Shown here: in pieces, positions 2,325-31,168 of the stretch
Numbering within the stretch: position 1 is the first letter of the stretch
Layout of the letters: each line of letters opens with the position of its first letter
Origin: Sphingomonas sp. 67-36
GTDB lineage: Bacteria; Pseudomonadota; Alphaproteobacteria; Sphingomonadales; Sphingomonadaceae
NCBI GenBank assembly: GCA_001897375.1
Contig: MKSU01000029.1
Span: 1 to 41,606 of the forward strand
Direction of reading: 5' to 3'
Length of the DNA stretch: 41,606 nucleotides
Program-made: the position numbers and the translations under genes
The notes under the pieces: generated by a model
The model's database searches: none
The model's input: the letters and a program-made list of their open reading frames with translations, nothing else
What the model was told of the DNA's origin: nothing

Positions 2325-2402
2325 AAACTGCGCCGCCCCAGCGTCGATGCTGCTCCGAGGCCTTTCTCCGGTGCGCGCAGCATCGACACGGGGCTAACCA
2401 GA

Positions 2403-2667: not shown

Positions 2668-2676
2668 GACGCTGGG

Positions 2677-2775
2677 AGGGCTGGGCGCTACCGGATTTCT
2701 GGCCTGCGCGAGCGCCGTTGGATGTCTGTGCGGCAGACGATCGTGCACCCGGTGGTCTTTACGCCGCGAATTCGA
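2677..2775 (+). pseudogene. DUF6927 C-terminal remnant
   Basis: In one frame the sequence reads RYRISGLRERRWMSV...TIVHPVVFTPR, closely matching the end of the DUF6927 gene at the left edge of the window (RYRVAGLRERRWMPV...TIVHSVAFTPR). No start and no upstream DUF6927 domain are attached. It directly follows the end of duplicated segment copy 1, so it marks a recombination junction. Confidence 0.75.
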
Positions 2776-2873
2776 TCCCCGAGGGACAGGCATGGTAGCC
2801 ATCACCCCACGGCGGCTACTAGTTTGGTTGGGGCGGGGCGCCCGAGAACGGTCGCCTCTACCTCTACCGCTGG

Positions 2874-4708: not shown

Positions 4709-5338
4709 ATGGCCATGTTCCCCTCAACGCCGCAGCCGCAGGACACGCCGTGGGGCGCGCCGCAAAGCGCCGATCAGCTCCTGCCCGGCATCTGGCTTGT
4801 CGAAACCGCCTCGCACGGCGGCTTGATGCTGTCGGCCGCGCGCCAGGGCGCGATGCCCGACGCGCTGCGCCGCGAGGACGGTATTTACGAGGAGGATTGC
4901 GACTGGGCGCTGCCGGTGCTCGGCTTCGAGGCCGAGTTCGCGCTGGCCGCTCGGACCCCGGCGGGCTGGGTGCAGCTCGCGCACGACACCGCCCGTATGT
5001 GGCATCCCGATGCGTATATGGCGTTTACCGGAACGACGCTCACGCCGTCGGACAGCTATGTCCTCAAGGAACGCGAGGCCTATCGCGAGCGCATCGGCAG
5101 GATCGTGGTCCGGAGTGCCTACGGATCCTGGGCGGACTGGGTGCCCGAGGGCAAGACCGGTGTCGTCGGAGCACCGCTCGAAGGCGTCAATCATCTGGCG
5201 CAGCCGCGCTATGGAGCGGCCACGTACCGCGGCCTGTGCGATGCCGCAGCCTACGACGCGCGCTCGCGCCCCGTGGCCTTCGACGAGCTCGGGGTCGAAC
5301 TGCTCGATGAGCCCAGCACCGTCGCACCGGCGGCGTGA
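4709..5338 (+). CDS. DUF7007-like protein
   Basis: The 209-residue protein begins MAMFPSTPQPQDTPWG and then has LLPGIWLVETASHGGLMLS and EEDCDWALPVLGF, which match my recollection of DUF7007 proteins. A tyrosine/aspartate-rich stretch with a SYGSWADWVPEGK-like region (SAYGSWADWVPEGK) follows. No enzymatic motif is evident. Its stop overlaps the ATG of the TGT-like gene (TGATG), so the two are translationally coupled. GGGAGAG lies just upstream of the chosen ATG. Confidence 0.65.
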   Translation: MAMFPSTPQPQDTPWGAPQSADQLLPGIWLVETASHGGLMLSAARQGAMPDALRREDGIYEEDCDWALPVLGFEAEFALAARTPAGWVQLAHDTARMWHPDAYMAFTGTTLTPSDSYVLKEREAYRERIGRIVVRSAYGSWADWVPEGKTGVVGAPLEGVNHLAQPRYGAATYRGLCDAAAYDARSRPVAFDELGVELLDEPSTVAPAA

Positions 5339-6345
5339 TGCCGATCGCCATCGTCGTCGGTCTGCCGCACCTGTCGGCGGGGCCGATCCTGTCGCGCGCG
5401 CTCGCGCTGCGGTGCCCGCTGCTCGTCTCGGCCAATGCGCTGTCGCGCTGGGCGATGCGGCGAGGTGTTCGCGAGTGGGCAGGGTGGCGACTGGCGCCGC
5501 TCGCCAACCTGCCCGAGCGCGCCGACTGCATGCTCGACAGCGGCGGCTTCACCGCGCACGTCACCTATCGCGGCTTTCCCTGGACGATCGCGCAATATCT
5601 CGATCTCGCCGCCGCGTATCCGTTCCGCCTGTTCGCCAGCCTCGACTACCCGGCCGAGCACGAGATCGCCGGCGACCGCGCGGCGGTGCGCGAGCGGATC
5701 TCGCGCACGATCGCGGCAAACCGCGAAACGCGGCGCCAGGCCGAGGACCGCGGCCTTGAAGATCGGCTCATGCCGGTGCTGCAGGGGCGCACACCCGAAG
5801 ACTTCGAACGCTGCGCCGACGCCCTGGCGTGGTCGATTGTGCCAGGGCGAACGATCGGCGTCGGTAGCATGTGCCGGCGCCAGACGCGCGGCCCCGACGG
5901 ACTCGTCGCGGTGCTCGAGCATCTTGATCGCGTGCTGCCTGCGCGAGTCCGGCTCCACGCGTTCGGCGTGAAAGGCGACGCGCTCCCTTATCTTCGGCAT
6001 CTCGAACACCGCGTCGTCAGCATCGACAGCCAGGCCTATGGAGTCGCCGCCCGCCGCGATGCGCACCGTCGCGGGGTGCCGAAGACCGATCGTGTCGTCG
6101 CCAGGCACATGACCCGCTGGGTCGAGGCGCAGACACGCGCTGCGACAGCGCGAGGCCAGCGGCTGCCGCCCTTCGCCGTGCCGACGCCCGATCCGATCAT
6201 CACCGTTCCCCGCGAGTCGGCGATCGCGCGGGCTCGCCAAGAGATCAACGATCTGATCGAGTCCGGCGATCTCGACCACGACGACATCGTCGAGAGCTGG
6301 ATCGAAGCCTGGGCGGCCGACCTGCCGCTCGAAGAGCACGACTGA
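5338..6345 (+). CDS. TGT/DpdA-like base-exchange enzyme (DUF7221-like)
   Basis: The 335-residue protein resembles the queuine tRNA-ribosyltransferase superfamily. MLDSGGF (Asp67) matches the active-site DSGG of TGT, SLDYPAE (Asp103) follows on the next strand, RTIGVGSMCRR (about 172-181) fits the base-binding glycine loop, and VVSIDSQAYG (Asp230) sits where the nucleophile is expected. The family swaps guanine for 7-deazaguanines; DpdA members act on DNA. No preQ0 synthesis genes are nearby, so any such substrate would come from the host. The C-terminal zinc site of tRNA TGT is not seen. A DNA target is inference. Confidence 0.72.
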   Translation: MPIAIVVGLPHLSAGPILSRALALRCPLLVSANALSRWAMRRGVREWAGWRLAPLANLPERADCMLDSGGFTAHVTYRGFPWTIAQYLDLAAAYPFRLFASLDYPAEHEIAGDRAAVRERISRTIAANRETRRQAEDRGLEDRLMPVLQGRTPEDFERCADALAWSIVPGRTIGVGSMCRRQTRGPDGLVAVLEHLDRVLPARVRLHAFGVKGDALPYLRHLEHRVVSIDSQAYGVAARRDAHRRGVPKTDRVVARHMTRWVEAQTRAATARGQRLPPFAVPTPDPIITVPRESAIARARQEINDLIESGDLDHDDIVESWIEAWAADLPLEEHD

Positions 6346-6346
6346 C

Positions 6347-6369
6347 AGAGGGAAGGGGGAGGGAGCGGG
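6347..6369 (+). repeat. purine-rich tract
   Basis: AGAGGGAAGGGGGAGGGAGC lies directly after the TGT-like gene and before the next gene. It belongs to the same recurrent G/A tract class as 4664-4680. Confidence 0.65.
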
Positions 6370-6410
6370 TGGGCGCGAGATGGCGCTCGCAGCGACAGGA
6401 ACCTGCGGCC

Positions 6411-7055
6411 ATGACCTACGATGTGGCATTCCGCCACCAGCAGGCGCTCGACCCGAGCGCGCTCTCGACGATCGGTGCTTCGCTTCACGCGATCGGCGCA
6501 GCCGTGAGGGACTGCCGCAACGCCGGGGTCGATGCCGAGACCGACCCTGCCGTCGTGCTGTTCGTGCGGCATCTCGCGCGCCTAACCGAAGGCCAGCCCG
6601 ATACCATGGTGCTTCGCCGGGCGTGCATGGACCGCATCGCCGCGTTGCGGCGCTTTCCGGCGCTGCAGGTGCTGGCGATCCGCGGCGTCGCCCACGACGA
6701 ACCTGCGAAAGCGCGGTTCCACGCCGATGGGCGCGCGGCAATGCGCCGCCTCGCCGAGGCACTTGGCCTCGATCCGTCGCGCTACGACATCCGGTCGAAT
6801 CGTGCCGGCCCCGCCGTCTCGGGCGAGATCACGCTCCATGGCGAGGAACTGTGGGTGCAGCTCAGCCTCGGCGCGATGGGGCCGGACAACGAGGTCTGCT
6901 ACCGGCGTGTGCGCGATCGCCACGACCATTGCGGCGAGCGCAACCATTGGGCCTCGGTCCGCGCGCTGCTCGCCCCCGACCGCTTCGCCGCGACGCTGCG
7001 CAGGGACCTCGGCCTCTCGTCGGCGGCGACCGAGCCGGTCCATCTCTTCGCGTGA
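6411..7055 (+). CDS. conserved hypothetical protein
   Basis: The 214-residue soluble protein starts MTYDVAFRHQQALDPSAL. A helical N-terminal half contains repeated arginine-rich helices. A C-terminal part reads VSGEITLHGEELWVQLSLG and then RRVRDRHDHCGERNHWASV, a Cys/His/Asp-rich loop that could bind metal. AGGA lies about 12 bases before the ATG. It sits between the TGT-like and PP-loop genes and reads in the same direction. I do not recognise a named family. Confidence 0.6.
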   Translation: MTYDVAFRHQQALDPSALSTIGASLHAIGAAVRDCRNAGVDAETDPAVVLFVRHLARLTEGQPDTMVLRRACMDRIAALRRFPALQVLAIRGVAHDEPAKARFHADGRAAMRRLAEALGLDPSRYDIRSNRAGPAVSGEITLHGEELWVQLSLGAMGPDNEVCYRRVRDRHDHCGERNHWASVRALLAPDRFAATLRRDLGLSSAATEPVHLFA

Positions 7056-7097
7056 CGCGCTCGCCGCGCGGCGCGCCATCTTCACGGAGTTCCTGCC

Positions 7098-8198
7098 ATG
7101 AACGTCCCCGCGGCGCTGCCGCCGCTTGCCTTCGACCCAATGATCCTCACCGCGATCACGGACGGTGCCTGGGTCGTCTTCAACCTCTCGTCGGGCAAGG
7201 ATTCGAGCGCGGCGACGTTCGCGACGATGAAGTTCCTCGATTCCGTCGGTCATCCTCGCGACCGGCGGCTGGCGATCCATGCCGACCTCGGCCGCGCCGA
7301 GTGGGGCTCGACAGCCGCGATGGTCGAGCGGATCGCGGCGCTGGCCGGTCTGCCGCTGACGACTGTTCGCCGGCGGGCCGGCGACCTGTTCGCGCGCTGG
7401 CACCAGCGGTTTGAGGCCGGCAAGGCACGCTACGAGGCGCTCGAGACATACAATCTGATCGGTCCGTGGTCGAACGCCGGGCTCCGCTTCTGCACCTCGG
7501 AACTGAAAGCCCAACCGATCGGCCAGGCGCTGTCGCGGATGCTGCGCGGAGCGACCATCATCAACGTGCTCGGCATCCGGCACGACGAGAGCGAGGCGCG
7601 GGCGCGAACGCCGATCGCCAAGGCAGATCATCGTTTCGCAGCGTCGGACAATGCCGCCGGCACGCGCATGCTGGTCTGGAATCCGATCGTCGGCTGGTCG
7701 AGCCAAGACGTCTTCGAGGCGCATGCCGCGCTCGGGATCCCGCTGCACGAGGCCTATACGGTCTATGGCAGCTCCCGCTTGTCGTGCCGCTACTGCGTCC
7801 TGCAGTCGCTGGCCGACCAGCGTGCAGCCGCCGCGGCGCCCGAGAACCGCCAGGCCCTGATCGACCTCGTGACGCTTGAAGCGCGTTCGACCTTCTCCTT
7901 CCAGCCGACCCGCTGGCTCGGCGACGTCGCGCCCGACCTGCTTCCCGCCGATCTCCGCGAGGCACTCGTTCGTGCCAAGATCGACGCGCGGTCGCGTCGG
8001 CTGGGTGAGGCCAGCCTGCCCGCAGCCCTTCGCTTCCAACGAGGCTGGCCGCCGCGCTTGCCGACGATGGCCGAGGCGCGGGTCATCGCTGACGTCCGCG
8101 CTCAGCTGCTGGCGCGGCATGCGCTCGCCAACCTTTATCCCAGCCCGCGTGCCATCCTCGCCAGGTTCGCCGAGCTGCGCGCGCGGAAGGCGGCATGA
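7098..8198 (+). CDS. PP-loop ATPase, PAPS-reductase-like family (first copy)
   Basis: The 366-residue protein has the PP-loop FNLSSGKDSSAAT (motif at 31-36), FCTSELKAQPI, the family's CT..LK nucleotide-binding motif, and SCRYCVLQS, a CxxC late in the fold. These fit the adenine-nucleotide alpha-hydrolase superfamily that includes PAPS reductase and DndC. Such enzymes activate a substrate with ATP or reduce sulfate esters; the substrate here is unknown. No cysteine desulfurase or other dnd gene is nearby, so phosphorothioation is not supported. GGAG precedes the ATG, and the stop overlaps a small upstream ATG of the next gene. Confidence 0.85.
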   Translation: MNVPAALPPLAFDPMILTAITDGAWVVFNLSSGKDSSAATFATMKFLDSVGHPRDRRLAIHADLGRAEWGSTAAMVERIAALAGLPLTTVRRRAGDLFARWHQRFEAGKARYEALETYNLIGPWSNAGLRFCTSELKAQPIGQALSRMLRGATIINVLGIRHDESEARARTPIAKADHRFAASDNAAGTRMLVWNPIVGWSSQDVFEAHAALGIPLHEAYTVYGSSRLSCRYCVLQSLADQRAAAAAPENRQALIDLVTLEARSTFSFQPTRWLGDVAPDLLPADLREALVRAKIDARSRRLGEASLPAALRFQRGWPPRLPTMAEARVIADVRAQLLARHALANLYPSPRAILARFAELRARKAA

Positions 8199-8269
8199 GC
8201 GATGCCTGTGTCGGCAGCGGGTCTCGCCGGGCACGACCGGTTAAACATCAAGCAGGAAGGACTACCGGC

Positions 8270-8731
8270 ATGGCCGATCGCGCTTCAGCATCCATTCGTA
8301 TCGGCGGCGTGCTTGCACGCGTCCTCGTCGATGCGCTTATTGCGACAATCGCGCGGGAGGGGGGCTTCGCCGGATGGGACGAGACCCCGATCGACGCAGC
8401 CACGCTCGAACGCAAAGGGTCGCTTGAAGTGTGCGGCTACGAACTCGCCGGGGGCGTCTTCGACGAACTCGAGGCTTTTTGCGTCGAGCACGGGCTTGCC
8501 TTCATCCGTACATCGGGAAGCTGCCCAGGCGCGTTCGGGCCCGAGCGGGTCGTCTACAAGGGCGCAGGGGAGCCGGGTCATTTCGCCTTGGACGAGGATG
8601 ACCGGGTGGTGATCGACCGCTCGACGATGGAAGCGCTGGGCACCCTCGAGGCGGCGCGCTGCTATTTCGACGCCGCCGATTTCGAGCCGCCCGAACTCAC
8701 CGTGGCCCGACGCGCCCGACGATCCGGCTAA
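8270..8731 (+). CDS. conserved hypothetical protein
   Basis: The 153-residue acidic protein starts MADRASASIRIGG. ATG 8270 has AGGAAGGA upstream; an earlier ATG at 8195 overlaps the PP-loop stop but would add a poorly structured leader. Mixed alpha/beta content with SGSCPGAFGPERVVY in the middle. No family recognised. It closes the first sub-operon before the toxin-antitoxin pair. Confidence 0.6.
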   Translation: MADRASASIRIGGVLARVLVDALIATIAREGGFAGWDETPIDAATLERKGSLEVCGYELAGGVFDELEAFCVEHGLAFIRTSGSCPGAFGPERVVYKGAGEPGHFALDEDDRVVIDRSTMEALGTLEAARCYFDAADFEPPELTVARRARRSG

Positions 8732-8790
8732 GAGCAGAGACTGGCGCGCGAGCAATCAGCTTGCAAAACATCATCTGTCGGACTAGATAG

Positions 8791-8802
8791 CTGACTAGTC
8801 AG
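8791..8802. promoter_or_regulatory. palindromic operator of the toxin-antitoxin pair
   Basis: CTGACTAGTCAG is a perfect 12-bp palindrome 16 bp upstream of the antitoxin ATG. Phd-type antitoxins commonly bind such sites to repress their own operon. A related GACTAGATAG lies immediately before it. Confidence 0.65.
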
Positions 8803-8818
8803 AGTGAGGAAAGCAGGT

Positions 8819-9076
8819 ATGACCAGATGGGCAGTTCAGGACGCAAAAGCGCGGTTCAGCGAAATGCTCGACACCTGCCTGCGCGACGGTGCTCAGGTCG
8901 TCACAAAACGAGGAGCTGAAGCTGCGGTGCTCGTCCCGATCGCTGAATGGGAAAGGTTGCAGACGGGCGCGCGTCGGAGCCTGAAGGCGCTTCTCCTCGC
9001 CGACACCCCGCGCGCCGATCTTGCGATTCCCGCCCGAGGCGCAAGCCGCCGTCGCGCCGCCCTCAACCTTCGCTGA
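8819..9076 (+). CDS. Phd/YefM-family antitoxin
   Basis: The 85-residue protein reads MTRWAVQDAKARFSEMLD, then VTKRGAEAAVLVPIAEWERL, the standard Phd/YefM N-terminal DNA-binding fold, with a variable basic C-terminus that would neutralise the toxin. It is followed after 4 bp by a PIN-domain toxin gene. A GTG five codons upstream (8804) is possible, but GAGGA sits well for ATG 8819. Confidence 0.92.
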   Translation: MTRWAVQDAKARFSEMLDTCLRDGAQVVTKRGAEAAVLVPIAEWERLQTGARRSLKALLLADTPRADLAIPARGASRRRAALNLR

Positions 9077-9080
9077 TCCG

Positions 9081-9494
9081 ATGTACTTGCTCGATACAAA
9101 CGTCGTGTCGGAGTTGCGGCGAGCTAAGCCCCACGGTGCGGTACTCGCATGGCTTGAACGAGCAGACGATGCCGACCTTCACTTGTCGGCGATGACCGTT
9201 GGCGAGATCCAGGCGGGTATCGAGATCACGCGCGAGCAGGACGCTTCTAAGTCGGCCGAACTGGAAAGCTGGCTCGAAGAGGTTTCGAGCGGCTACCAGA
9301 TCCTGGCCGCCGACGCGCCGGTCATGCGACAATGGGCTCGCTTCATGTACCGTCGTTCGGACACGTTGATTGAGGATGCCGTCATCGCCGCGACCGCACA
9401 GGTCCATCGGCTGATCATCGTGACGCGCAATGTTCGCGATTTTACTCCTTTCGGCGTCGAGACGCTCGATCCGTTCAAGCCTCTCGGTCGCTGA
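9081..9494 (+). CDS. vapC: VapC-type PIN-domain toxin
   Basis: The 137-residue PIN protein carries the acidic residues of the VapC ribonuclease site: LLDTNVVSEL at the start, SAMTVGEI with its glutamate, IEDAVIAATA and TRNVRDF. VapC toxins cleave tRNA or rRNA and are held inactive by the antitoxin encoded directly upstream. The frame is intact, so the pair may be functional and could stabilise the element. Confidence 0.93.
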   Translation: MYLLDTNVVSELRRAKPHGAVLAWLERADDADLHLSAMTVGEIQAGIEITREQDASKSAELESWLEEVSSGYQILAADAPVMRQWARFMYRRSDTLIEDAVIAATAQVHRLIIVTRNVRDFTPFGVETLDPFKPLGR

Positions 9495-9735
9495 CCGTTC
9501 GACCCTGAGCGGGCTTGCTACCGACTAGCGTTCGACTGTTGCGAGGACAGGCGAGCGTCCCTCGCTAGGCTAGACCGCCTGCTTTCGCGGCCCCATCACA
9601 GCATCGACTTGACAGTGGTGCCGCCATCGCCGCCGCGGCGCGATCCGCGCTGCCGAGTGATTTGACGAGTAAGTGGAGGGGGAGGGGGGCGGTGAGTCCG
9701 CGCCAAGTTGGTCCGTCGGGCATCGGAGAACGGCC
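9495..9735. other. intergenic region with purine tract
   Basis: The 241 bp after vapC hold no convincing gene. A GGAGGGGGAGGGGGG tract lies at 9675-9689, 47 bp before the next start codon. No clear -35/-10 pair or terminator was found. Confidence 0.6.
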
Positions 9736-10947
9736 ATGGCAAGCGTCACCCCTCTGCCCCTTCCGCAGCCGAGCAACAGCGTACCGATCGGCCGCCACGC
9801 CACCGGCGCGCTCTCGATCGATCTCGACCGTTTGCTCGCCGGACGGCTGCTGATCCAGGGCAGCTCGGGCGCCGGCAAGAGCCGCACACTGCGGCGTATC
9901 ATTGAAGAGGCCTTCGACTATGTGCTGACGATCATCGTCGATCCCGAAGGCGAATTCGGCAATCTCGCCACGCATATCGGGGCGACGTCGCTGCGCGCCT
10001 GCGAGCTCACAGCCGATGGCTTGACCGCCGCATCCGCGCGGGCCCGCGCACACCGCATCCCGCTCCATCTCGACCTGACCGACCTCGATCCCGACCAGCG
10101 GATCGTCAAGGCCGCGGCCTTCTTCGCCGGGCTGATCGGCGCGCCGCGCGAGCATTGGGCGCATACGGTCCTCGTCTGCATCGATGAAGGCCATCTGCTG
10201 GCGCCGCACCATGCCGGCTCGGCGCGCGACGCCGAGACCCGTCGCCTGGGCGTCGCGACGCTGACCGACCTTTGCGCGCGCGGGCGCAAGCGCGGGATCG
10301 CCCCGATCATCGCTACGCAGCGGCTGGCCAAGCTGTCGAGCTCGGTGACCTCCGAGCTGCAGAACTTCCTCGTCGGCCTGAACGTATTCGATCGCGACAT
10401 CGCGCGCGCGGCGGACCTGCTGGGCTTCTCCAGCAGGGACGCCGAAAACCTGCGCAAGCTTGCGCCCGGCGAATTCTACGCGATGGGGCCGGCGATGGCG
10501 CCGATCCCGCTGCTCGCGAAGATCGATCCGACCATCACCGAGCATCTTGGCGCGACCCCCGAGCTGCAGGCGGCGGCCGACCTCGACGAGGATGAGGCGG
10601 CGCGGCTGCTCGATCTCGCGGCGTTGCGCGAGATGCCGGCCGGCGCGCGCGATGGCGCGCTCTCGATGAAGGGACTGCGTGCGCTCGACAGCTTCCTGAT
10701 CGACCCAGCGGCGGCGGTCGCCGCCGCCATCGTCGCCGCGCTGAAGCGGATCGCGCCTAACGCGACAACGGCCGCCGATCTGGCCGCCCATCTCGCCGCC
10801 GACCGCGAACAGGTCGACGCCGCGCTCGATATCCTTTCCGCGCTCAACGCGATCGATACGATGCCGCGCGGCGCGCACCGGATCGCCCGCCTGCACGCTA
10901 GGTTGCGCGCCAAGATCGGCGATGTTGCCGTCGTGGGGCTCGCATGA
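9736..10947 (+). CDS. HerA-like / DUF87-type ATPase
   Basis: The 403-residue protein is a P-loop NTPase of the HerA/FtsK kind: Walker A GSSGAGKS (42-49), IVDPEGEFG (about 68-75), the strand typical of HerA-like proteins, Walker B VLVCIDEGHLL (about 146-155), a CARGRKRG stretch, and sensor IIATQRLAKL. The C-terminus is helical. It lacks the N-terminal HAS barrel of archaeal HerA. Such ATPases act as DNA translocases in repair, transfer or defence complexes. ATG 9736 has GGAG upstream. Its stop overlaps the SANT-repeat gene by ATGA, and a Mom-like gene follows. Confidence 0.85.
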   Translation: MASVTPLPLPQPSNSVPIGRHATGALSIDLDRLLAGRLLIQGSSGAGKSRTLRRIIEEAFDYVLTIIVDPEGEFGNLATHIGATSLRACELTADGLTAASARARAHRIPLHLDLTDLDPDQRIVKAAAFFAGLIGAPREHWAHTVLVCIDEGHLLAPHHAGSARDAETRRLGVATLTDLCARGRKRGIAPIIATQRLAKLSSSVTSELQNFLVGLNVFDRDIARAADLLGFSSRDAENLRKLAPGEFYAMGPAMAPIPLLAKIDPTITEHLGATPELQAAADLDEDEAARLLDLAALREMPAGARDGALSMKGLRALDSFLIDPAAAVAAAIVAALKRIAPNATTAADLAAHLAADREQVDAALDILSALNAIDTMPRGAHRIARLHARLRAKIGDVAVVGLA

Positions 10948-12356
10948 CCGGGCTCGACCTTGCGCCCACCATCGTCGAGCTTGTCGCCTGCCCGGCGGCA
11001 CCGCAGCCGCGGGGACCTTTGCGCGAGATGGCGTTTCGCAAGGACGCCTGGACCGGGTCGGAAATCGCGCGGCTTTGCGAACTGTTCCGCGACGACGTGT
11101 CGCTCGACGACATCGCCGCCGCACTTGGTCGTGGCCGGGCCGGCGTCGCCGATCGGATCGGCGTGCTCGGCCTTCGCCGCAACTCGACCCGCCCCTGGTC
11201 CGAGCGTGAGGACGAGGAACTGACCCGCCGCTACGGCGTCGAGCCGACTGCGGCGATCGCCTCGGACTTCGGGCGATCGTGCGCGGCGATTTATGCGCGC
11301 GCCGGGCTGCTCGGTCTCGGCGAGGCGATTGCCGCCGCGTGGACCGAATGGGAGGATGCCCAGCTGCGCGCGGGTTATGCCGCCGGCGTCCCCATCGCGC
11401 AGCTCGCCACGCTCATCGGCCGGCCGCTTGGCGGAATCTCGTCGCGCGCGGGCTCGCTCGGGATCGTCCACGCCAATCATCCCGCCGACTGGTCGGCGGA
11501 TGAAGCTGCGCGCGCGCTGACGCTCGCCGAGGAGGGGCATCGCTACCGCGACATCTTGAACATCATGTGTGCCGAAGGCTTTCCGGCGCGCTCGCTCGCC
11601 GGATTCGGCCCGATCGTTCGCCGTCTGGGCTATGGCCGCGGCTGGGGACGGCCTTGGTCGCCCGAAGAGGATGCGCTGCTTCGCCAGGCCTATGCGGACG
11701 GCGCGAGCCTCACGCCGCTACGGACGCGGCTCGGGCGGACCAACCACTCGATCCGCTGGCGGGCGGAGTATCTCGCGCTGCGCGGCACGCACGTCCGCCG
11801 CAACGGGTTTCGCGCCGGCCCCGACTGGACCGAGGCAGAGATCGCGATGCTGCGCGCCGAATACGGCACGACGCCCAATGTCGACTTGGCGGCGAAGCTC
11901 GGCCGCACCAAGGCCGCGATGTTCACCCGCGCGAACCTGCTCGGGCTCGTTCACGGCTATATCCGGCCGTTCTCGGAGGAGGAGAGCCAGGCGTTGGCGG
12001 CCGCCTACCGCACCAATATCGCGATCGCCGATCTCGCAATGGCGCTCGGCCGCAAGGCCTGCTCGGTCAGCAAATACGCGACCAACCACGGCTACCGGTT
12101 CGGGCGGCGACCGAGGCGCGACGGCGGGGTGTCGCTCGCCGACCTGCTTGCGCTACGTCATCCGCCCGACCGCACCGAAATCGTCGGCGCGACCCCGTTC
12201 GCGTCCGTCACCGCGCAGCAGGACGCCCGAACCACGTGGCGAGCCATGGCAAGGGCGAGACGCGCGACGACCCGGTCGAGCTTCCGAGGCCGGGTGCACG
12301 CGCGCGCAGCGCGCAGGAGCCGCCGCCGCGGATCGGGACACCGCGCCCCCCGCTAG
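10944..12356 (+). CDS. seven-repeat SANT/Myb-like DNA-binding protein
   Basis: The 470-residue protein consists of seven tandem units of about 48-55 residues. Each starts with an aromatic plus acidic helix (W36, W85, W133, W183, W238, W295, F343, as in PWSEREDEEL and DWTEAEIAML), continues to an LGR turn in most units and ends in a helix closing with LGL or LGY. This is the SANT/Myb tri-helix pattern, the fourth unit being the most diverged. The C-terminus (about 425-470) is very basic. A modular, sequence-specific DNA-binding role is likely. It overlaps the HerA-like gene and lies 38 bp ahead of the Mom-like gene. Confidence 0.8.
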   Translation: MTGLDLAPTIVELVACPAAPQPRGPLREMAFRKDAWTGSEIARLCELFRDDVSLDDIAAALGRGRAGVADRIGVLGLRRNSTRPWSEREDEELTRRYGVEPTAAIASDFGRSCAAIYARAGLLGLGEAIAAAWTEWEDAQLRAGYAAGVPIAQLATLIGRPLGGISSRAGSLGIVHANHPADWSADEAARALTLAEEGHRYRDILNIMCAEGFPARSLAGFGPIVRRLGYGRGWGRPWSPEEDALLRQAYADGASLTPLRTRLGRTNHSIRWRAEYLALRGTHVRRNGFRAGPDWTEAEIAMLRAEYGTTPNVDLAAKLGRTKAAMFTRANLLGLVHGYIRPFSEEESQALAAAYRTNIAIADLAMALGRKACSVSKYATNHGYRFGRRPRRDGGVSLADLLALRHPPDRTEIVGATPFASVTAQQDARTTWRAMARARRATTRSSFRGRVHARAARRSRRRGSGHRAPR

Positions 12357-12394
12357 CGACCTTCGCCGTGCTCCGCCCTCACAGGACCACGCCC

Positions 12395-13201
12395 ATGGAA
12401 ACGACCCGCAGCCAACGCTGGCGCGAGCGGCGAAGCCGCTTCGTCGACGATCTCGAAGTGATCGACCCCAACGCCTATGCGGTCGATGTCATCGATTATC
12501 CCGCCGCCCGCGCGTTCATTGCCGAGCATCACTATCTGCCGACCTATCCCGCCGCCCAGGTCGCGGTCGGGCTGTTCGCCGCGCGGCCGCGGCCGGTGCT
12601 GGCCGGCGTCGCCGTCTTCGCCGTCCCCTCGACGGGCGCGGTGGTCACGGCGCATAGCGGCCTCGCGACCGCCGCCCAGGGTTGCGTCCTCGCCCGGCTG
12701 CTGCTGCTCGACTCGGTCCCGCAGAACGGCGAGAGCTTCTTCGTCGCCCGCGCCCTGCGCCTGCTGCGCCGCGAACGCCCAGCGATCGAGGCCGTGGTCA
12801 GCTTCAGCGATCCATCGGCAGGCCATATCGGCCGCGTCTATGCCGCGCTGTCGAGCGCCTATCGCGGCCGGACCGCCGAGCGGCTCGTGCTGATGGCGGG
12901 GCGGCGCACGGTCTCGGACCGGACGCTGTCGAAAATCCGCGGCAGCGAGCGCGGCCATGGCGGCGCGATCGACCAGCTCGTCGCCCTTGGGCTTCCTCCA
13001 CCCGCTGTCGGCGAAGAACCCCCGGCGTGGCTCGCACGGCTCCGCCGCGAGCGCCACCTCGTGGCCCGTCGACGCCCGGGACTCTTCACCTATTGCTTCG
13101 AGCTCACCCGCCACGCGCGCCGCGCCGGCCGGCCACTACCTCGGCTGACCTATCCCAAGATCTTGCCCGAGGTTGCGCCGACTCTGCCGTTCGAAACCTA
13201 G
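12395..13201 (+). CDS. Mom-like GNAT-fold DNA modification protein
   Basis: The 268-residue protein matches the family of phage Mu Mom, which converts adenine in DNA to N6-carbamoylmethyladenine and so blocks restriction. Visible landmarks are FIAEHHYLPTYP (41-52), GVAVFAVPS, ARLLLLDSVPQNGESFFVARAL (about 100-121), and VVSFSDPSAGHIGRVYAA (134-151) followed by a tyrosine before RG (Y156). The last block is the strongest family signature. A C-terminal arm of about 80 basic residues follows. AGGA precedes the ATG. It shares a likely operon with the HerA-like and SANT-repeat genes. Substrate and modification chemistry are unproven. Confidence 0.75.
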   Translation: METTRSQRWRERRSRFVDDLEVIDPNAYAVDVIDYPAARAFIAEHHYLPTYPAAQVAVGLFAARPRPVLAGVAVFAVPSTGAVVTAHSGLATAAQGCVLARLLLLDSVPQNGESFFVARALRLLRRERPAIEAVVSFSDPSAGHIGRVYAALSSAYRGRTAERLVLMAGRRTVSDRTLSKIRGSERGHGGAIDQLVALGLPPPAVGEEPPAWLARLRRERHLVARRRPGLFTYCFELTRHARRAGRPLPRLTYPKILPEVAPTLPFET

Positions 13202-13277
13202 CGCTAGGCCGCCATCACTCGCGTAGACGCGCCGCCTGCCGACTCAAACCGCGAGGAAGACGCCACAGCGGCACCCG

Positions 13278-13295
13278 GGAGAGGAGGGGGGAAGG
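13278..13295 (+). repeat. purine tract before the GHKL gene
   Basis: GGAGAGGAGGGGGGAAGG lies 43 bp before the GHKL ATPase start, which has its own ribosome-binding site (GAGGAG). Member of the recurrent tract class. Confidence 0.65.
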
Positions 13296-13337
13296 AACGG
13301 CGGGGCGACGAAATTGCGCGCTCCGAGGAGACACCGC

Positions 13338-14978
13338 ATGCCATCCACCATCCGCCCCACCGTCAGCCCGGCGATGATCGGCAAGGTCGGCCGCCTGTTC
13401 AATGGAACGCTAGCCGATATCCTCGCCGAGCTCTTCCAGAACGCGCGACGCGCCGGCGCGACGATGCTGCGGGTCGACGCCCATCCGAGCGCCGATGCGA
13501 CCATACTCACCATCACCGACGACGGCTGCGGGATCGACGACCCCGCGAGCATCGTCACGCTCGGTCACTCCGGCTGGTCAGAGGCGATCTGTTCGAGCGA
13601 GGATCCGGCCGGCATGGGCGTGTTCAGCCTTGCCGGGCGCGATGTCGCGATCACCTCGCGGACCGCCGACCGCCCGGTCGGCTGGAGCGTCGCGATCGGG
13701 GCCGGACAATGGGACGGCGGCGACGATCTGGTCGTCGCCGAGGCCGATCACTCGCCCGGCACGACGATCAGCATCGTGCTGCCCCCGGAGTGGTTGCAAC
13801 AGCTCGACGACGTAATCGCGACCGCCGCGCGTCATTTTCCGGTGCCGGTGTCCTTCAATGGCAGCGAGTTGGCTCGCCAGGATTGGCTCGACGGCGCGAT
13901 CGCCGTGTCGGCGTGGAACGGCAGCCGGATCGGCGTCTTCGAGGGCGCCGATCCTTACGGAGCACGCATCAACTTCCACGGCGTGACGATCAAATGCCGG
14001 CTCCCCTCGCTCACGCAGGTCAACGATCGTGCGCTTCTCGCGCGGGTCGACATCGGCTCGACGCCGTCGCTCCAACTGGTGCTGCCGGCGCGCAAGGAAG
14101 CGGTGGAGAACGACGGGCTTGCCGCGCTGCGCGCCGCCGCCGAGCGCGCCATCTTCGCGGCCGTGGCTGAACAGCCCTCGCACAGCCTTGGTTTCGAGGA
14201 CTGGCAGCGCGCTCGGTCGCTGGGCGTCGATCTTCCCGAGGCCGCGCCACTGCTGCGCGCCTGGCAACCGCAACTCGCCGACAGCGCGTTCTCCCGCGAG
14301 GACGGTCCGCTGCTTGCCACCGAGTCCGCGGTCCTCGCTGGCGATCTCGAGCCGCAGATCGCCAGTCCGCTCGACCGGGCGCTGCGCGATGACCCGTTGC
14401 GCCAGTCACTCGTCCAGCCCGAGCGCCGCTATGTCGGCTACGCCTGGTACGACCGGCTTCCCAGCATCATCGATGTCGCCTTCCATGTCGCCGCCGTCGA
14501 TGGGGCAGCCCATGTGATCGGGCTTCACGGCGACGTCCCCGAACTCCCCGACCATGTCGAGGCGCGCGCGATCGACATGGTCGTCACCGTCCAGTCCGGC
14601 GACGAGGCCGCGAACCATGTCGTCGCGACCGACCTGGCCTTCGGCAGCGCCGACAATTGCTGGTACGATCTCGACGCCGCGCGCATCGCCTGGGTGCGGG
14701 GGCTGACGCCCGACCAGCTCGCCGAGCAGCTCGAGAACGCATTCTTCGCCTCGAGCGACGATCACGATGCCGACAACTGGGATACGCAGCACGGGCATTT
14801 CCAGGATGCGGCGCGGATCATCGCGATGGATCTGCTCGCCAGCCCCGACGACGCTCTTGTCGATCGCGTCAGGCGCGCGATCAGCGACCATGTCTGGTTC
14901 CTGCCCGAGAAGCGCAGCATCACGATCGCCATCGTCGATCGCGCGATCAACGTCGCGCTCGGCCCGGAACCAGTGTGA
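13338..14978 (+). CDS. GHKL-type ATP-binding protein (Hsp90/MutL-like ATPase)
   Basis: The 546-residue protein has all Bergerat-fold motifs: the N box ELFQNARRAG (31-40), G1 DDGCGID (61-67) and a G2 region with AGMGVFSLAG (91-100). A second domain includes VDIGSTPSLQLVLPARKEAVEN, reminiscent of the transducer domain with a catalytic lysine. There is no histidine-kinase dimerisation domain. The C-terminal 250 residues are not recognised. Proteins of this kind act as ATP-driven clamps. GAGGAG precedes the ATG, and the stop overlaps the start of the second PP-loop gene (TGATG). Confidence 0.85.
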   Translation: MPSTIRPTVSPAMIGKVGRLFNGTLADILAELFQNARRAGATMLRVDAHPSADATILTITDDGCGIDDPASIVTLGHSGWSEAICSSEDPAGMGVFSLAGRDVAITSRTADRPVGWSVAIGAGQWDGGDDLVVAEADHSPGTTISIVLPPEWLQQLDDVIATAARHFPVPVSFNGSELARQDWLDGAIAVSAWNGSRIGVFEGADPYGARINFHGVTIKCRLPSLTQVNDRALLARVDIGSTPSLQLVLPARKEAVENDGLAALRAAAERAIFAAVAEQPSHSLGFEDWQRARSLGVDLPEAAPLLRAWQPQLADSAFSREDGPLLATESAVLAGDLEPQIASPLDRALRDDPLRQSLVQPERRYVGYAWYDRLPSIIDVAFHVAAVDGAAHVIGLHGDVPELPDHVEARAIDMVVTVQSGDEAANHVVATDLAFGSADNCWYDLDAARIAWVRGLTPDQLAEQLENAFFASSDDHDADNWDTQHGHFQDAARIIAMDLLASPDDALVDRVRRAISDHVWFLPEKRSITIAIVDRAINVALGPEPV

Positions 14979-16502: not shown

Positions 16503-16527
16503 CGGGCGATCCATGAAGGAGACAGCC

Positions 16528-23960: not shown

Positions 23961-24254
23961 TTGAAGACCACGCTCAGGCATTACAATCTCCGGGTCGAAC
24001 GGCGGCAGTGGGACCGCCTGGCGACGCTCGCGCGCGACCGCGGGGTCTCTCCCGCCGAGATCGTCCGCGCGGCGATCGACGCCTATTTCGCGCAAGCCGA
24101 CCTGCTGGACGCGAGCCGGCGCCGGCTGGTGCGGATCGGTGAGTTTCAGCAGCTCGCGCTCGACGTCATCATCCGCGAGCAATTCCCCGAGTTCCGCGAG
24201 CGCATTCTCGCCGAGGTCGACAAGCGCGTGGAGCTTCATCATGGCGCGCGCTGA
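23961..24254 (+). CDS. ribbon-helix-helix protein, relaxosome-type accessory factor
   Basis: The 97-residue protein starts LRHYNLRVERRQWDRLATLA after a few residues, followed by RGVSPAEIVRAAIDAYF, the strand-helix-helix of the MetJ/Arc fold. A C-terminal helical part (LLDASRRRLVRIGEFQQLAL) follows. TTG at 23961 is chosen because AGGAGG is 6-7 bases upstream. It overlaps the TraD gene by 14 bp. Such proteins bind oriT next to MobF relaxases or repress the transfer operon. Confidence 0.8.
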   Translation: MKTTLRHYNLRVERRQWDRLATLARDRGVSPAEIVRAAIDAYFAQADLLDASRRRLVRIGEFQQLALDVIIREQFPEFRERILAEVDKRVELHHGAR

Positions 24255-26535
24255 CATCCGCTCGGACGGGCGGCCAATCCCGCTCAAGCACCATTCGGCA
24301 CGCGGCAAGGTCCAGCGCAACTCGGGCAATTTCACCCGCGGTTCGCAGCTCCTCACCCACGAGGTGCTGATGTGGTTCGCCGGCGCGAAGCTGCCGGTCA
24401 TCGTCTGGTTTTTCTGCTTCCTGATCGCCTATTCGGTAATCCTCTCGATCATGCTCGACGAGCACGAGATCCAGCTCATCGGCATGCGGCTCTATGCGAT
24501 GCTCTGGAACTGGATCGGCGCGAACCCGATGAAGCCGGTCAACCTGACGCTCCCCGACGGCCACATCCGCCCGACCGTGATGGCGGTGGTCGAGCATATT
24601 CCCCAGGTCATCACCGCCTCGGGCAAGGCGATCCGCGGCCTCATCGGCTCGTTCTTCGTGTCGTTGTTTGCGACGATCCCGCTGTCGATCTGGTTCGTCG
24701 ACCTGTCGCGGCGGCGGGGCCGGACGATCCTTCAGGAACGCCACGAGCGCGGCGCGATGCTGGTCGAACGCGACGTGCTCGCCGGCGAGATCGCGCGCCA
24801 CAACCGGGCCTGTTTCGAAGCCGATGCGCGGACGCATTATCCCGATCTGACTCCGGCCGAAGTAGTGCGGCTGCCGTTCGCGGCGCGCAAGGCGGCGGGA
24901 ATCCATCACCCGTACAGCCTGGCCGGCATCGCCTATCCCTACCGGCTCGAGCAGAGCCATACGATGATCATCGGCACGACCGGCGCGGGCAAGACGACCG
25001 AGCTGCGGCGGCTGGTGACGCAGCTGCGCGAACGGCAGGACACCGCGGTCGTCTTCGACCTGACCGGCGCCTATGTCGAAAGCTTCTACGACCCCGCGCA
25101 CGACACCATACTCAACCCAATGGACCAGCGCTGTCCGGCCTGGTCGATCTTCGCCGATTGCACGACGCATAGCGAGTTCACGGCCGCGGCGGCGGCGCTG
25201 ATCCCGGCCGACGGCGGCTCGTCCGAACCCTTCTGGGCGCTTGCCGCGCGCACGCTGTTCATCGAGATGTGCGTAAAGCTGCAGGAGGGCGGCGCGACGA
25301 CCAATCTGGCGCTGTCCGAGAACCTGATGACCGCCGATTTGAAGCGCGTGCATCGCTTCCTCGCGAACACCATTGCCGACCCGCTGACCGCGCCGGAAGC
25401 CGCGCGCATGGCGGAGTCGATCCGGGCGGTGTTCAACACCAATGCACAGGTGCTTCGCTTCCTGCCCGACGAGGGGCCGCGCTTCTCGATCCGCGACTGG
25501 ATCACCGGCGACAAGCAGCCCGGCAGCATCCTGTTCGTCACCTCCAACTATGTCGATCTGCCGATGAACCGGGCGCTGCTGACGCTGTGGATGGACCTTG
25601 CGATCAACCGGTTGATGACGCTGCCGCGCACCCGCTCATTGCGAACGTGGTTCCTGTTCGACGAGCTGGGCGCGCTGCACCGCCTGCCGGCGATCGAGAA
25701 CGGACTCCAGACCGCGCGTTCGTTCGGCGGCGCAATGGTGCTGGGACTGCATAGCTTCGAGAAACTGATCGAGGTCTATGGCGAGCAGGGCGCACGCAAC
25801 CTCGCCAGCCTCGCCCGCACCAAGCTCATTCTCGCGACCGCCGATCTCGACACCGCCGAGCAGTGTGCCCGCTACATCGGCAACCGCGAAGTCCGCCAGA
25901 TGGATGAGGCTTACAGCTACGGGTATAACAACACCCGCGACGCCTCGACGCTGACCCCGCGCAAGCAGGTCGAGCCGCTCGTCATTGCCGACGACATCAC
26001 CAACCTGCCGTCGATGTACGGGTTCGTAAAATTCCCCGATGGGTTCCCGGCCGCCCGGATCAAGCTCGTCTGGCGCGATTACCCGAGCATCGCTGAGGGC
26101 TTCATCGCGCGACCCGATCCGAAGCCCGTCCGTTCGAAGCGCGGCGCGGCGGCCTTCGCGGAAGGTGAGGGGGAGCAGGGTGGCCGGGACGGGTCGGGCC
26201 AGGTGGTGCATGAGGCGGGGGAGGCGCTCGACGCCGCCCGCGCGCTGGCGGCATCGATCCTGAGCGCGCCGACCGAGGACGAGCTCGCCGCGCGCGCGCA
26301 GGATGGGGAGCGGACGGATGCAATCGTGCCGGTCGATGCCGACGCGCATCGCCGCGCCGGCGAGCCGGCAAAACCGCGTGAGCCCGACGACCCGCGCGGC
26401 GCCGATGCAGCCGCGCGCCGTTCCGGTCGCGATGCGCCGCGCAGCACGGCTGTCGAGGATCTGACGCTCGTCGAGCTGCGCCAGGATTTCAGCGAGCCGG
26501 ACGCCGGGCATGACGGCCCGGACATGGGCATCTGA
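24241..26535 (+). CDS. traD: type IV coupling protein TraD/VirD4-like
   Basis: The 764-residue protein has two N-terminal transmembrane helices (about residues 39-73 and 135-160). The Walker A IIGTTGAGKTTE follows near 243-254, and later come FLFDELGALHRLPAIENGLQ, the Walker B region, and LARTKLILATADLDTAEQ. It is the hexameric ATPase that links the relaxosome to the mating channel. The last 110 residues are charged and low complexity. GGAG precedes ATG 24241, and the relaxase gene starts 3 bp after the stop. No mating-pore genes lie in the window. Confidence 0.93.
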   Translation: MARADIRSDGRPIPLKHHSARGKVQRNSGNFTRGSQLLTHEVLMWFAGAKLPVIVWFFCFLIAYSVILSIMLDEHEIQLIGMRLYAMLWNWIGANPMKPVNLTLPDGHIRPTVMAVVEHIPQVITASGKAIRGLIGSFFVSLFATIPLSIWFVDLSRRRGRTILQERHERGAMLVERDVLAGEIARHNRACFEADARTHYPDLTPAEVVRLPFAARKAAGIHHPYSLAGIAYPYRLEQSHTMIIGTTGAGKTTELRRLVTQLRERQDTAVVFDLTGAYVESFYDPAHDTILNPMDQRCPAWSIFADCTTHSEFTAAAAALIPADGGSSEPFWALAARTLFIEMCVKLQEGGATTNLALSENLMTADLKRVHRFLANTIADPLTAPEAARMAESIRAVFNTNAQVLRFLPDEGPRFSIRDWITGDKQPGSILFVTSNYVDLPMNRALLTLWMDLAINRLMTLPRTRSLRTWFLFDELGALHRLPAIENGLQTARSFGGAMVLGLHSFEKLIEVYGEQGARNLASLARTKLILATADLDTAEQCARYIGNREVRQMDEAYSYGYNNTRDASTLTPRKQVEPLVIADDITNLPSMYGFVKFPDGFPAARIKLVWRDYPSIAEGFIARPDPKPVRSKRGAAAFAEGEGEQGGRDGSGQVVHEAGEALDAARALAASILSAPTEDELAARAQDGERTDAIVPVDADAHRRAGEPAKPREPDDPRGADAAARRSGRDAPRSTAVEDLTLVELRQDFSEPDAGHDGPDMGI

Positions 26536-26538
26536 GCG

Positions 26539-29526
26539 ATGCTGTCGGTCGCCTCGGTCCGCTCGGCGTCGGGCGCGGCGAGCTATTTCGCCAAGGACGA
26601 TTATTATACCGGCGAGCAGACCTCGGAGGCGAGCCTGTGGGACGGCGCCGGGGCGGCGTCGCTCGGGCTGGACGGCGAGGTCGACGCCAAGGTGTTCGAG
26701 GGCATCCTCAACGGGGTACTGCCCGATGGCGAAGCGGTCGGGCAGGTCGACAACCGGCAGGCGGGCGTCGACATGACCTTCTCGCTGCCCAAATCGGCGT
26801 CGGTGCTCGCCTATGTCGCCGGCGATCAGCGCATCCTCGCCGCCAACATGACCGCGGTGCGCGCCACAATGCGTTGGGTCGAGGCGAACCTCGCCGAAGG
26901 GCGCAAGGACGTCGATGGGCGCAAGGTGCCGGTCAAGACCGGCAATCTCGTCTATGCGCTGTTCCAGCACGACACGAGCCGCGCGCTTGATCCGCAGGGC
27001 CATATTCATGCGGTCATCGCCAATCTGACGCGGATGCCCGACGGACAGATGCGCGCGCTCCATAACGGCGCCTTGTGGAAGAACAACGCCGTCATCGGCT
27101 CGATCTACCACGCGCAGCTGCGCCACGAGTTCGAGAAGCTCGGCTACCGCATCGAGGGCGCCGGCAAGCATGGCTCGTTCGAGATCGCCGGCGTGCCCAA
27201 GCCGGTGATCGACGCCTTCAGCCAGCGGCGCCAGGCGATCCTCGCCAAAGCGGCCGAGCTCGGCATCGTCTCGCCGCAGGGACGCGACGAGATCACCACC
27301 AACACCCGCGATCCCAAGCTCAATGTCGAGGATCGCACCGCGCTACGCCAAGCCTGGGTCGACAAGGCGGCGGGGCTCGGCTTCGACGGGGCGGCTCTCG
27401 TCGCGGCCGCGCACGCCGCGGCTGGGCAGTCGGCCGAGGCGACGCGGCTTGAGCGAGGCTATGCGGCGATCTCGAAGGCGCTCGGCGCGGCGGCCATTCT
27501 GCTCGGCAGCCTCCATCGTCCGCATGACCCGCTCGTCGACAGCGGGCTGGCCCGGTTGGCGCGGTCGCCGGCGGACGCCCGCGCGCAGCTCGCGGTTGCG
27601 TCGGCGGTGCGCATCCTCAGCGAGCGCGAAGCGGCGTTCCCGCTCGCGGGGCTGTCCAAGGCGGCGCTCGACCTGGCGCTGCCCGGCGTCACGATCGACC
27701 ATGTTGAGCGGCGCGTGGCGACCTTACTCGATCGCGGGCAGTTGCTGCCCGAGGCGAGCCGCCGCCACGACGGCGCGGTGCTGCTGGCGACCACGCCCGA
27801 GGCGCTGCGCACGGAGGAGCAGATCCTGGCCGCGATCGAAGAGGGCAGGGGCCGCGCGGCGCCGATCGTGCCCGCGAGCGCGGCGCCCGAGAGGCTGCAG
27901 GACGTCGCCGCGCAGCCGCTCAACCCGGGCCAGCTTGCGGCCGCGACGATGATCGTCGGCTCGGCCGACCGCACCGTTGTCGTGCAGGGGGTCGCAGGGG
28001 CGGGCAAGTCGACGATGCTTGGTGCGGTCGCAAGGGTCGCCGAAGGCGAAGGGCGTTCGGTGCTCGGGCTGGCGTTTCAGAACAAGATGGTCGCCGACCT
28101 AAGCGATGGCGCGGGCATCGAGAGCCGGACGGTCGCCGCGTTCGTCCACGCCCATGAGCGTTTCCTGATCGAGCGCGCGGGTCCGCGCTACGAGGAGGCG
28201 CGCGCGGCGCTGGCGAGCACGCTGCTCGTCGTTGATGAGACCTCGATGGTGTCGAGCGCGGATCTCCTCAAGCTGCACCAGATCGTCGATGCGCTCGGCG
28301 TCGAAAAGCTCGCGCTGATCGGCGATCGTCAGCAATTGTCGTCGATCGACGCCGGCAAGGCGTTCGCGCTGGTCCAGGCGGGCGGCGCAACGACCACGCG
28401 GATGGACGAGAATATCCGTCAGCGGAGCGACCAGCTGCGCACCGTGGCAGCGCTTGCCAATGTCGGTCGCGCCCGTGCGGCGATCGACGTGCTGGGCGCT
28501 TCGGTGGTCGAGAACGCCGCGCCCGCCGAGCATGCCGCCGCACTTTGGCTGGCGCTGTCACCCGACGAACGCCAATCGACGCAGCTGTTCGCCTCGGGCC
28601 GCGATACCCGCGCGACGCTCAATCGCGTCATTCAGGACGGGCTGGCGGCCGAAGGCACGGTGAAGGGCGACGGGCTCGCGCTTATCGTCCTCGAGCGCGT
28701 CAATCACACGCACGAGGAGATGCGCCACGCGTCGAGCTACCACGCGGGGCAGGTGCTCGAGGTTGGGCGCAGGCTCGACGGCCTGGGGCTGACCACCGGG
28801 CGCTATGACGTGACGCGCGTATTCGCCAACGGGCGGGTCGAGCTTGCGATCGGCGGTCGGCGGATGCGGATTGATCCGCAGCGCCTGCCGCTTGGCGGCG
28901 GGCAGGGCGGATTGGGACTGAGCGAGCGCAAGGCGCTGCGGCTGCATGAAGGCGACCGGATTCGCTGGACCGCCAACGACAAGCCACGCGGGCTGCACAA
29001 CAGCGCCATCGCCCGCGTCGTGTCGATCGACGGCCGGGGTGTGACGGTCGAAACCGCCGGGCGCGATCGCCTGATCCTGGGCCACAGCGACCCGATGCTG
29101 GGGCGGCTCGACCTTGCCTACAGCCTCAACATGCACATGGCGCAGGGCATCACCACCGATCGCGCGATCACCGTGATGTCGTCGGGCGAGCGCTATCTGT
29201 CGAACCAGCGTCTGTTCAATGTCGGGGTGACGCGCGTGCGCGACCAGCTCACCCTCGTCGTCGACGACAAGGAGCGGCTGCAGGCGCAGCTCGACCGCAC
29301 CCCCGGCAACAAGACCTCGGCGCTCGAAACGCTCGGCCGGTTGGAGATCGATGCGCGAAAAGGGGAGGGTCGCGGCCGCTTCGATCCGGGTCCGCTCAGT
29401 CCGGACCTGATCGTCGGGCCGAAGGATCGGCCCGCGCCGCGCGGCGGACAAGCGAGGGCCGCGCCGGCCCGTACCGACCTGCCGCCGCTGCCGCTCCCCG
29501 AGCGCAGCCTTGGCCTCGATTTGTGA
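26539..29526 (+). CDS. traI: MobF-family conjugative relaxase-helicase (TraI/TrwC)
   Basis: The 995-residue protein has an N-terminal relaxase domain with catalytic tyrosines in SYFAKDDYYTGEQ (Tyr16, Tyr22, Tyr23) and a histidine triad in FQHDTSRALDPQGHIHAVIA (His144, His155, His157). It is followed by a RecD-like helicase: Walker A GVAGAGKST (about 484-492), LLVVDETSMVSSADLL, and a C-terminal SLNMHMAQGITTDRAI motif. It nicks oriT, stays bound to the 5' end and unwinds the transferred strand. It is immediately downstream of traD. The frame is intact. Confidence 0.95.
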   Translation: MLSVASVRSASGAASYFAKDDYYTGEQTSEASLWDGAGAASLGLDGEVDAKVFEGILNGVLPDGEAVGQVDNRQAGVDMTFSLPKSASVLAYVAGDQRILAANMTAVRATMRWVEANLAEGRKDVDGRKVPVKTGNLVYALFQHDTSRALDPQGHIHAVIANLTRMPDGQMRALHNGALWKNNAVIGSIYHAQLRHEFEKLGYRIEGAGKHGSFEIAGVPKPVIDAFSQRRQAILAKAAELGIVSPQGRDEITTNTRDPKLNVEDRTALRQAWVDKAAGLGFDGAALVAAAHAAAGQSAEATRLERGYAAISKALGAAAILLGSLHRPHDPLVDSGLARLARSPADARAQLAVASAVRILSEREAAFPLAGLSKAALDLALPGVTIDHVERRVATLLDRGQLLPEASRRHDGAVLLATTPEALRTEEQILAAIEEGRGRAAPIVPASAAPERLQDVAAQPLNPGQLAAATMIVGSADRTVVVQGVAGAGKSTMLGAVARVAEGEGRSVLGLAFQNKMVADLSDGAGIESRTVAAFVHAHERFLIERAGPRYEEARAALASTLLVVDETSMVSSADLLKLHQIVDALGVEKLALIGDRQQLSSIDAGKAFALVQAGGATTTRMDENIRQRSDQLRTVAALANVGRARAAIDVLGASVVENAAPAEHAAALWLALSPDERQSTQLFASGRDTRATLNRVIQDGLAAEGTVKGDGLALIVLERVNHTHEEMRHASSYHAGQVLEVGRRLDGLGLTTGRYDVTRVFANGRVELAIGGRRMRIDPQRLPLGGGQGGLGLSERKALRLHEGDRIRWTANDKPRGLHNSAIARVVSIDGRGVTVETAGRDRLILGHSDPMLGRLDLAYSLNMHMAQGITTDRAITVMSSGERYLSNQRLFNVGVTRVRDQLTLVVDDKERLQAQLDRTPGNKTSALETLGRLEIDARKGEGRGRFDPGPLSPDLIVGPKDRPAPRGGQARAAPARTDLPPLPLPERSLGLDL

Positions 29527-31162: not shown

Positions 31163-31168
31163 CGCGGG

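Follow-up and report, generated by a model that had tools for sequence, protein, structure and literature searches.

A candidate DNA base-modification module with DpdA-like and Mom-like proteins on a sphingomonad conjugative element

Introduction

DNA hypermodification is known as an anti-restriction tactic of phages, and plasmids are known for their inhibitor proteins and methyltransferases. Contig MKSU01000029.1 of Sphingomonas sp. 67-36 (C29) raises the question of whether a conjugative element may also disguise its DNA chemically. A first-pass annotation of its sequence had noticed a protein of TGT/DpdA type and another of Mom type, two families of DNA base-modification enzymes, encoded in the same orientation on one element. 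The window analyzed here is the entire contig (41606 bases), one of 32 in a genome of 4.0 Mb, and the element it carries is incomplete. The genes of the cassette (4709-14978) are all on the + strand, upstream of the genes for TrwB- and TrwC-type proteins, in the order DUF7007, DpdA-like, P3, PP-loop, P5, VapC-type toxin, HerA-like, SANT-repeat, Mom-like and GHKL. Our results confirm the observation that both families are present, and lead us to favour, with some reserve, the idea that they belong to a DNA base-modification module in the cargo or establishment region of a sphingomonad conjugative element, where they would write two parallel marks as camouflage against restriction.

Two predicted DNA base-modification enzymes

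The DpdA-like protein (335 amino acids; 5338..6345, + strand) has a TGT fold and is a predicted DNA guanine transglycosylase. It passed the curated cut-off of the Pfam DpdA profile (51.3 bits versus 27; E-value 1.1e-13) and matched phrog_1279 (7.2e-20), and Pfam TGT gave no match up to E 1. Its structure model had a predicted local distance difference test (pLDDT) value of 93.6, with a bacterial DpdA (7ui4) as best Foldseek match. Model and alignment reveal the TGT barrel with both catalytic Asp residues, D67 and D230, which align with D95 and D249 of 1iq8 and are invariant in 63/63 aligned sequences, as are D103, Q149-G150, G174 and G176. By family and fold, the protein would act on DNA. The barrel and the Asp pair are shared with 7ui4 and with the phage DpdA group 3, as presented in excerpted text of Hutinet et al. 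(2019, PMC6884629), whereas the gene studied here is carried by a conjugative element, unlike those of phages or of chromosomal dpd islands; among the matches listed, the protein is around 29-32% identical to mycobacteriophage proteins. Membership of a dpd defence island (DpdA-DpdK) was set aside, having no support in a PADLOC scan of 10 proteins (nine from the cassette and the one at 16513-17424), in which DpdA was the only dpd model matched (3.8e-5). In pCHQ1 of Sphingobium indicum UT26 and in a Roseomonas plasmid, DpdA-like genes lie near methyltransferase genes, and the fetched stretches gave no Mom match.

The Mom-like protein (268 amino acids; 12395..13201, + strand) is a predicted adenine-N6 hypermodification enzyme and reached 88.3 bits against the Pfam Mom profile, above the curated cut-off of 27.1. 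According to its predicted structure and alignment, it has the fold of Mu Mom and an equivalent, S114, of the essential Ser124; S138 was rejected for this position on residue numbering. Fold, Pfam family, the conserved serine and an aligned D139 region are common to Mu Mom (8bv8), the phage proteins of phrog_1384 and this protein, which differs from Mu Mom in its low identity (around 21%), its location on a conjugative element and its linkage to DpdA and PP-loop genes. In Mu, mom has a partner, com. Profiles, predicted structures and the alignment of catalytic residues agree on the TGT/DpdA-like and Mom-like identities first proposed. A divergent Mom subgroup (L044, L059 and L089; 41-46% identical) was found near DpdA and PP-loop genes; its members have a short insertion ahead of the conserved His, as do L104 and L170, and in two of the three a Thr replaces the Ser at the S114 position.

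It had also been remarked that preQ0 genes are not in the window. The same is true of group 3 phages, by the excerpted text (PMC6884629), so that supply by the host would be needed. The host genome encodes QueC (5.5e-70), QueF and a canonical Tgt, and a radical-SAM gene beside queC has a start that reads like QueE, a label given tentatively. A preQ0/preQ1 metabolism therefore exists in the host, with one step unaccounted for.

Linkage of the DpdA-like and Mom-like genes

The order of the genes suggests that the two enzymes may act jointly, and the proposal that they belong together was examined in genomes, plasmids and viruses. At E 1e-3, DpdA and Mom were each detected in 10 of 296 genomes of the order. 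With the genome of the window (G000) excluded, nine genomes had DpdA and nine had Mom, and four had both, against 0.27 expected (p 4.8e-5). Pfam DpdA and Pfam Mom were above cut-off in five genomes each of 398 from the phylum; with G000 again excluded, the single shared case, from another family (G544, genes around 1.4 kb apart), gave p 0.04, or p 0.09 when weaker Mom matches were counted.

A genome collection gave 102 confirmed DpdA loci, of which the best 80 were retrieved, more than one of them from some genomes; by record title, 73 belong to sphingomonads or close kin and seven (L035, L036, L055, L071, L081, L088, L097) to metagenome-assembled genomes, uncultured organisms or other genera. 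In 26 of these 80, nearly all sphingomonad, Mom lay no more than 10 kb from DpdA; where at least 9.5 kb of downstream sequence was available (58 loci), it was present in 22. Spacing in sphingomonads ranged from 12 nucleotides (nt) to more than 8 kb, sometimes with PRTRC, VapC or HerA genes between. Both genes were on one strand in all loci holding both (38/38, or 26 after collapsing near-copies), in either of two orders, DpdA>Mom and Mom>DpdA. The count of 38 excludes the second copies L001, L002, L184, L185, L192, L215, L239 and L252; L219, a second copy of L010, is included in the 38 and left out of the 26. The distances of both proteins were correlated in Mantel tests (0.80 with 26 loci, 0.70 with 19), which is not counted as proof because plain shared ancestry of the element fits as well as co-inheritance.

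The DpdA-like and Mom-like proteins matched 95 and 82 plasmid records in PLSDB, respectively, several of which are near-copies. At least 20 of the best 38 DpdA records (sphingomonads, at least 51.5% identity) were among the 22 Mom records of at least 59% identity, and at least 21 of these 22 had a DpdA match, one of them partial, among the matches listed.

A phage, another alphaproteobacterium and a plasmid of a betaproteobacterium also have DpdA and Mom close together. In a metagenomic contig from the viral collection (L170), PP-loop, Mom and DpdA, all three confirmed by Pfam, follow one another directly; PP-loop and Mom share 4 nt, and the Mom stop and DpdA start share 1 or 4 nt. The Kitasatospora plasmid L213 has a 4-nt overlap of DpdA with Mom, and a PP-loop gene around 4 kb upstream of them; in the Piscinibacter plasmid L210, the genes are PP-loop, Mom, another PP-loop-like gene and DpdA. 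DpdA is followed by Mom around 0.6 kb further in a phage contig (L104; terminase large subunit, PHROG 38, 5.2e-65), and precedes Mom in L256 as well; a Streptomyces plasmid (L204) has DpdA and a possibly broken Mom, and PP-loop and Mom occur in L203, of which the 12.8 kb fetched gave no DpdA match. A relative of the L170 Mom was present in 90 plasmid records, 17 of which were fetched as loci L197-L213; L204 and L210 were chosen for already listing both genes, and L203 with its PP-loop gene already named.

The search for viral Mom loci yielded one with a narrow alignment and 32 with a wider one, three of them with DpdA (two being the L104 and L170 contigs) and two with PP-loop in the flanks fetched. 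Among viral DpdA loci (best 80 of 133), Mom was present in three, one of them weak, and PP-loop in two. Weak matches below threshold, such as the L109 Mom (4e-5), are excluded from the viral counts. A 9-kb record from human faeces titled 'Bacteriophage sp.' (MT836715.1) has adjacent DpdA-like and Mom-like genes at 1263-3053 (54% and 61% identity) and looks like a fragment of a sphingomonad plasmid.

The PP-loop protein and its neighbours P3 and P5

Between the two enzymes lies a gene for a PP-loop ATPase (7098..8198, + strand) of PAPS-reductase/DndC-like type (Pfam PAPS_reduct 4.3e-11, phrog_424 1.7e-20), which also matches DndC models, weakly; a sequence search against solved structures gave no significant match. 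Three cysteines are conserved in 40 long homologues (C132 in 100%, C230 and C233 in 93% each), an arrangement that we take to be that of sulphur-transferring PP-loop enzymes, and its role could possibly be sulphur transfer or work on 7-deazaguanine. The gene was present in the fetched stretch of 22/80 DpdA loci and close to Mom in L016, L170, L203 and L210. In the genomes of the order (G000 excluded), it shared one with DpdA (p 0.09) and none with Mom (p 1.0); linkage at the level of genomes is thus unsupported, and the association is one of local gene order only.

P3 (214 amino acids; 6411..7055, + strand), with no Pfam family above cut-off, was the commonest of the DpdA neighbours tested (51/80 loci, on the same strand in 51/51) and may be a partner subunit of the DpdA-like protein. 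P5 (153 amino acids; 8270..8731, + strand) had no Pfam match and was found in the fetched stretch of 12/80 loci.

Proposed function and alternative explanations

In the module that we tend to favour, the DpdA-like enzyme would exchange bases in DNA in the way of a TGT, replacing some guanines by a 7-deazaguanine (preQ0 or preQ1) supplied by the host, while the Mom-like enzyme would place an acyl-derived group on N6 of adenine in certain sequence contexts. The PP-loop protein probably shares these substrates: it would make or convert the 7-deazaguanine, or else thiolate a base. The marks, presumably parallel and not steps of a single pathway, might hide the DNA of the element from the restriction enzymes of a new host, both on the strand that enters and later, once the genes have been expressed there. 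According to excerpts of PMC6884629, the DpdA of phage 9g alone puts preQ0 in DNA, and protection from EcoRI required a further, amidated base; the DpdA-like protein may therefore need a partner, for which the PP-loop protein is a candidate. We see a small chance that PP-loop, Mom and DpdA instead constitute one pathway writing a new hypermodified base in plasmid and phage DNA. The PP-loop protein would then alter the 7-deazaguanine or a base, DpdA would insert it and Mom would acylate the inserted base or a neighbouring adenine; if true, such a camouflage would serve conjugative plasmids and phages across alpha- and betaproteobacteria and actinobacteria.

Several results weigh against the proposed module of parallel marks. 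The DpdA-like protein fell far short of the DpdA equivalog NF041059 of NCBIfam (27.5 bits, cut-off 200) and is therefore placed in the wider family only; the template modelling score (TM-score) of its model to 7ui4 was just 0.47, and the fold does not tell DNA from tRNA enzymes (VIA Z tied). The PTPS family, which holds QueD, had no match in the host genome. Mom was missing from the fetched stretch of 54/80 DpdA loci and DpdA from the flanks of 29/32 viral Mom loci, some flanks being short in both sets, and among 15 plasmid Mom loci not picked for DpdA only one had it within around 6 kb. The homologues are thus frequently found apart, which in part bears out the outcome (the two genes rarely together) that the first-pass annotation had named as counting against its own proposal, and it follows that neither enzyme needs the other and that any joint function is optional. 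The co-occurrence counts are not independent, because related plasmids of one lineage share their backbone and move among genomes. In addition, excerpts of a review indicate that conjugation delivers single strands, on which restriction acts less. An obligate two-gene system was set aside, since most of the loci examined have one gene only.

Alternatively, both could be genuine DNA-modification enzymes that large plasmids gathered independently into an anti-defence island, in which case they would be close because of the island and would share no task. This explanation is still a strong rival, even if we are inclined to doubt it. The predominance of loci with a single gene and the variable spacing, with unrelated genes between, agree with it, as does the fact that plasmid leading regions collect unrelated anti-defence genes on one strand, by the excerpted text of Samuel (2024, PMC11541004), for which reason the shared strand is weak evidence for the module. 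The overlapping genes in unrelated replicons (L170 and L213) and the two gene orders look, on the contrary, like repeated selection for co-expression, and the co-occurrence in the order also speaks against mere collection. The idea that DpdA and Mom belong together therefore holds in part: the pairing is repeated yet optional.

A quite unlikely alternative is that DpdA and Mom mark self DNA while three interleaved genes attack phages or rival plasmids. These encode a HerA/DUF87-type ATPase (9736..10947, + strand; Pfam DUF87 5.5e-10), which resembles mad8 (PADLOC 5.4e-15) and the HerA of defence systems (5.1e-12); a SANT/Myb-like repeat DNA-binding protein (10944..12356, + strand; phrog_323 1.1e-54 in 5 stretches), whose gene overlaps that of HerA by 4 nt; and a GHKL ATPase protein (13338..14978, + strand; Pfam HATPase_c 1.5e-4 and NCBIfam MutL 4.4e-5, both below cut-off), which matches the type II restriction enzyme model REase_II (PADLOC 7.6e-6, residues 8-68). 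Chromosomal dpd clusters include restriction, and the three genes separate and flank DpdA and Mom in this element as well as in L014, L076, L081 and L082. Nevertheless, the REase_II match is limited to the ATPase part, no nuclease domain was detected among the 10 proteins scanned, L104, L170, L196, L204, L210 and L213 have no match to the HerA, SANT or GHKL models, and HerA, SANT and GHKL occur in merely 11, 11 and 10 of the 80 DpdA loci. Their interleaving, as first described, is real, and they probably constitute a neighbouring, separate module; a part for them in the modification chemistry was set aside on these counts. It is very unlikely indeed that tRNA is the substrate of the TGT-fold protein, or some RNA that of the Mom-like protein, to the benefit of translation of the element or the host, as a canonical Tgt is already present in the host, Pfam DpdA and not Pfam TGT was matched, the best Foldseek match is a DNA enzyme, and the family occurs on plasmids and phages.

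The recurrence of DpdA and Mom together on many plasmids and a few phages suggests, but does not prove, a chemical disguise of DNA on entering a new host. No description of both on plasmids was found in the open-licence literature among the matches listed. The jumbo phage PA5oct (Iyer, 2021, PMC7824862) differs in being a phage, and the excerpted text describes no adjacent pair with a PP-loop gene and no conjugative plasmids. The anti-defence genes of plasmid leading regions sit on the first-entering strand, and their islands share with this cassette the use of one strand and hold anti-defence and methyltransferase genes, by the excerpts of Samuel (2024, PMC11541004); a word search of its main text gave no mention of Mom, deaza, phosphoadenosine, tRNA-ribosyltransferase, hypermodif or Sphingo. 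If DpdA and Mom do work on large sphingomonad and actinobacterial plasmids, plasmids too may disguise their DNA chemically, with effects on their spread, and new DNA bases would be expected in strains that grow readily, for example Sphingobium indicum UT26, whose pCHQ1 has a DpdA-like gene.

The element and other genes of the window

The genes for a TrwB-type coupling protein and a TrwC-type relaxase (24139..29526, + strand; Pfam TrwB_AAD_bind 1.9e-161, TrwC 5.5e-81) make the element conjugative or mobilisable. All the cassette genes are oriented toward the relaxase side, the predicted origin side of TrwB/TrwC, which would fit a leading region. The origin of transfer (oriT) was not found; the stretch at 22.5-23.85 kb, which contains inverted repeats, was matched in 300 plasmid records, none covering more than 80% of it.

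At the start of the cassette, directly upstream of the DpdA-like gene, lies the gene of a DUF7007-domain protein (4709..5338, + strand; Pfam DUF7007 2.9e-40), whose TGA stop (5336-5338) overlaps the DpdA-like start (GTG at 5335 or ATG at 5338); DUF7007 was present in the fetched stretch of 20/80 DpdA loci. The cassette also contains a VapC-type toxin gene with a PIN domain (9081-9494), matched in 8/80 DpdA loci and preceded by an open reading frame that can be read as an antitoxin (pair 8818-9494). HerA-like and SANT-repeat genes, often with GHKL too, constitute a conserved run of their own (9736-14978), with or without Mom, and HerA is 74-77% identical in L014, L046 and L051.

Upstream of the conjugation genes there is a protein with a SLOG-family (YAcAr) domain (20790-21833). 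Winged-helix and integrase-core domains at 34027-34836, plus an overlapping open reading frame (region 34027-35512), suggest a transposase in two frames, presumably resembling IS630. The cargo at 30671-41504 includes genes for glyoxalase-like, ArsC-like, metallo-beta-lactamase-fold, pyridine nucleotide-disulphide oxidoreductase and TauE/SafE proteins, the last three of which recall sulphide detoxification and may serve it.
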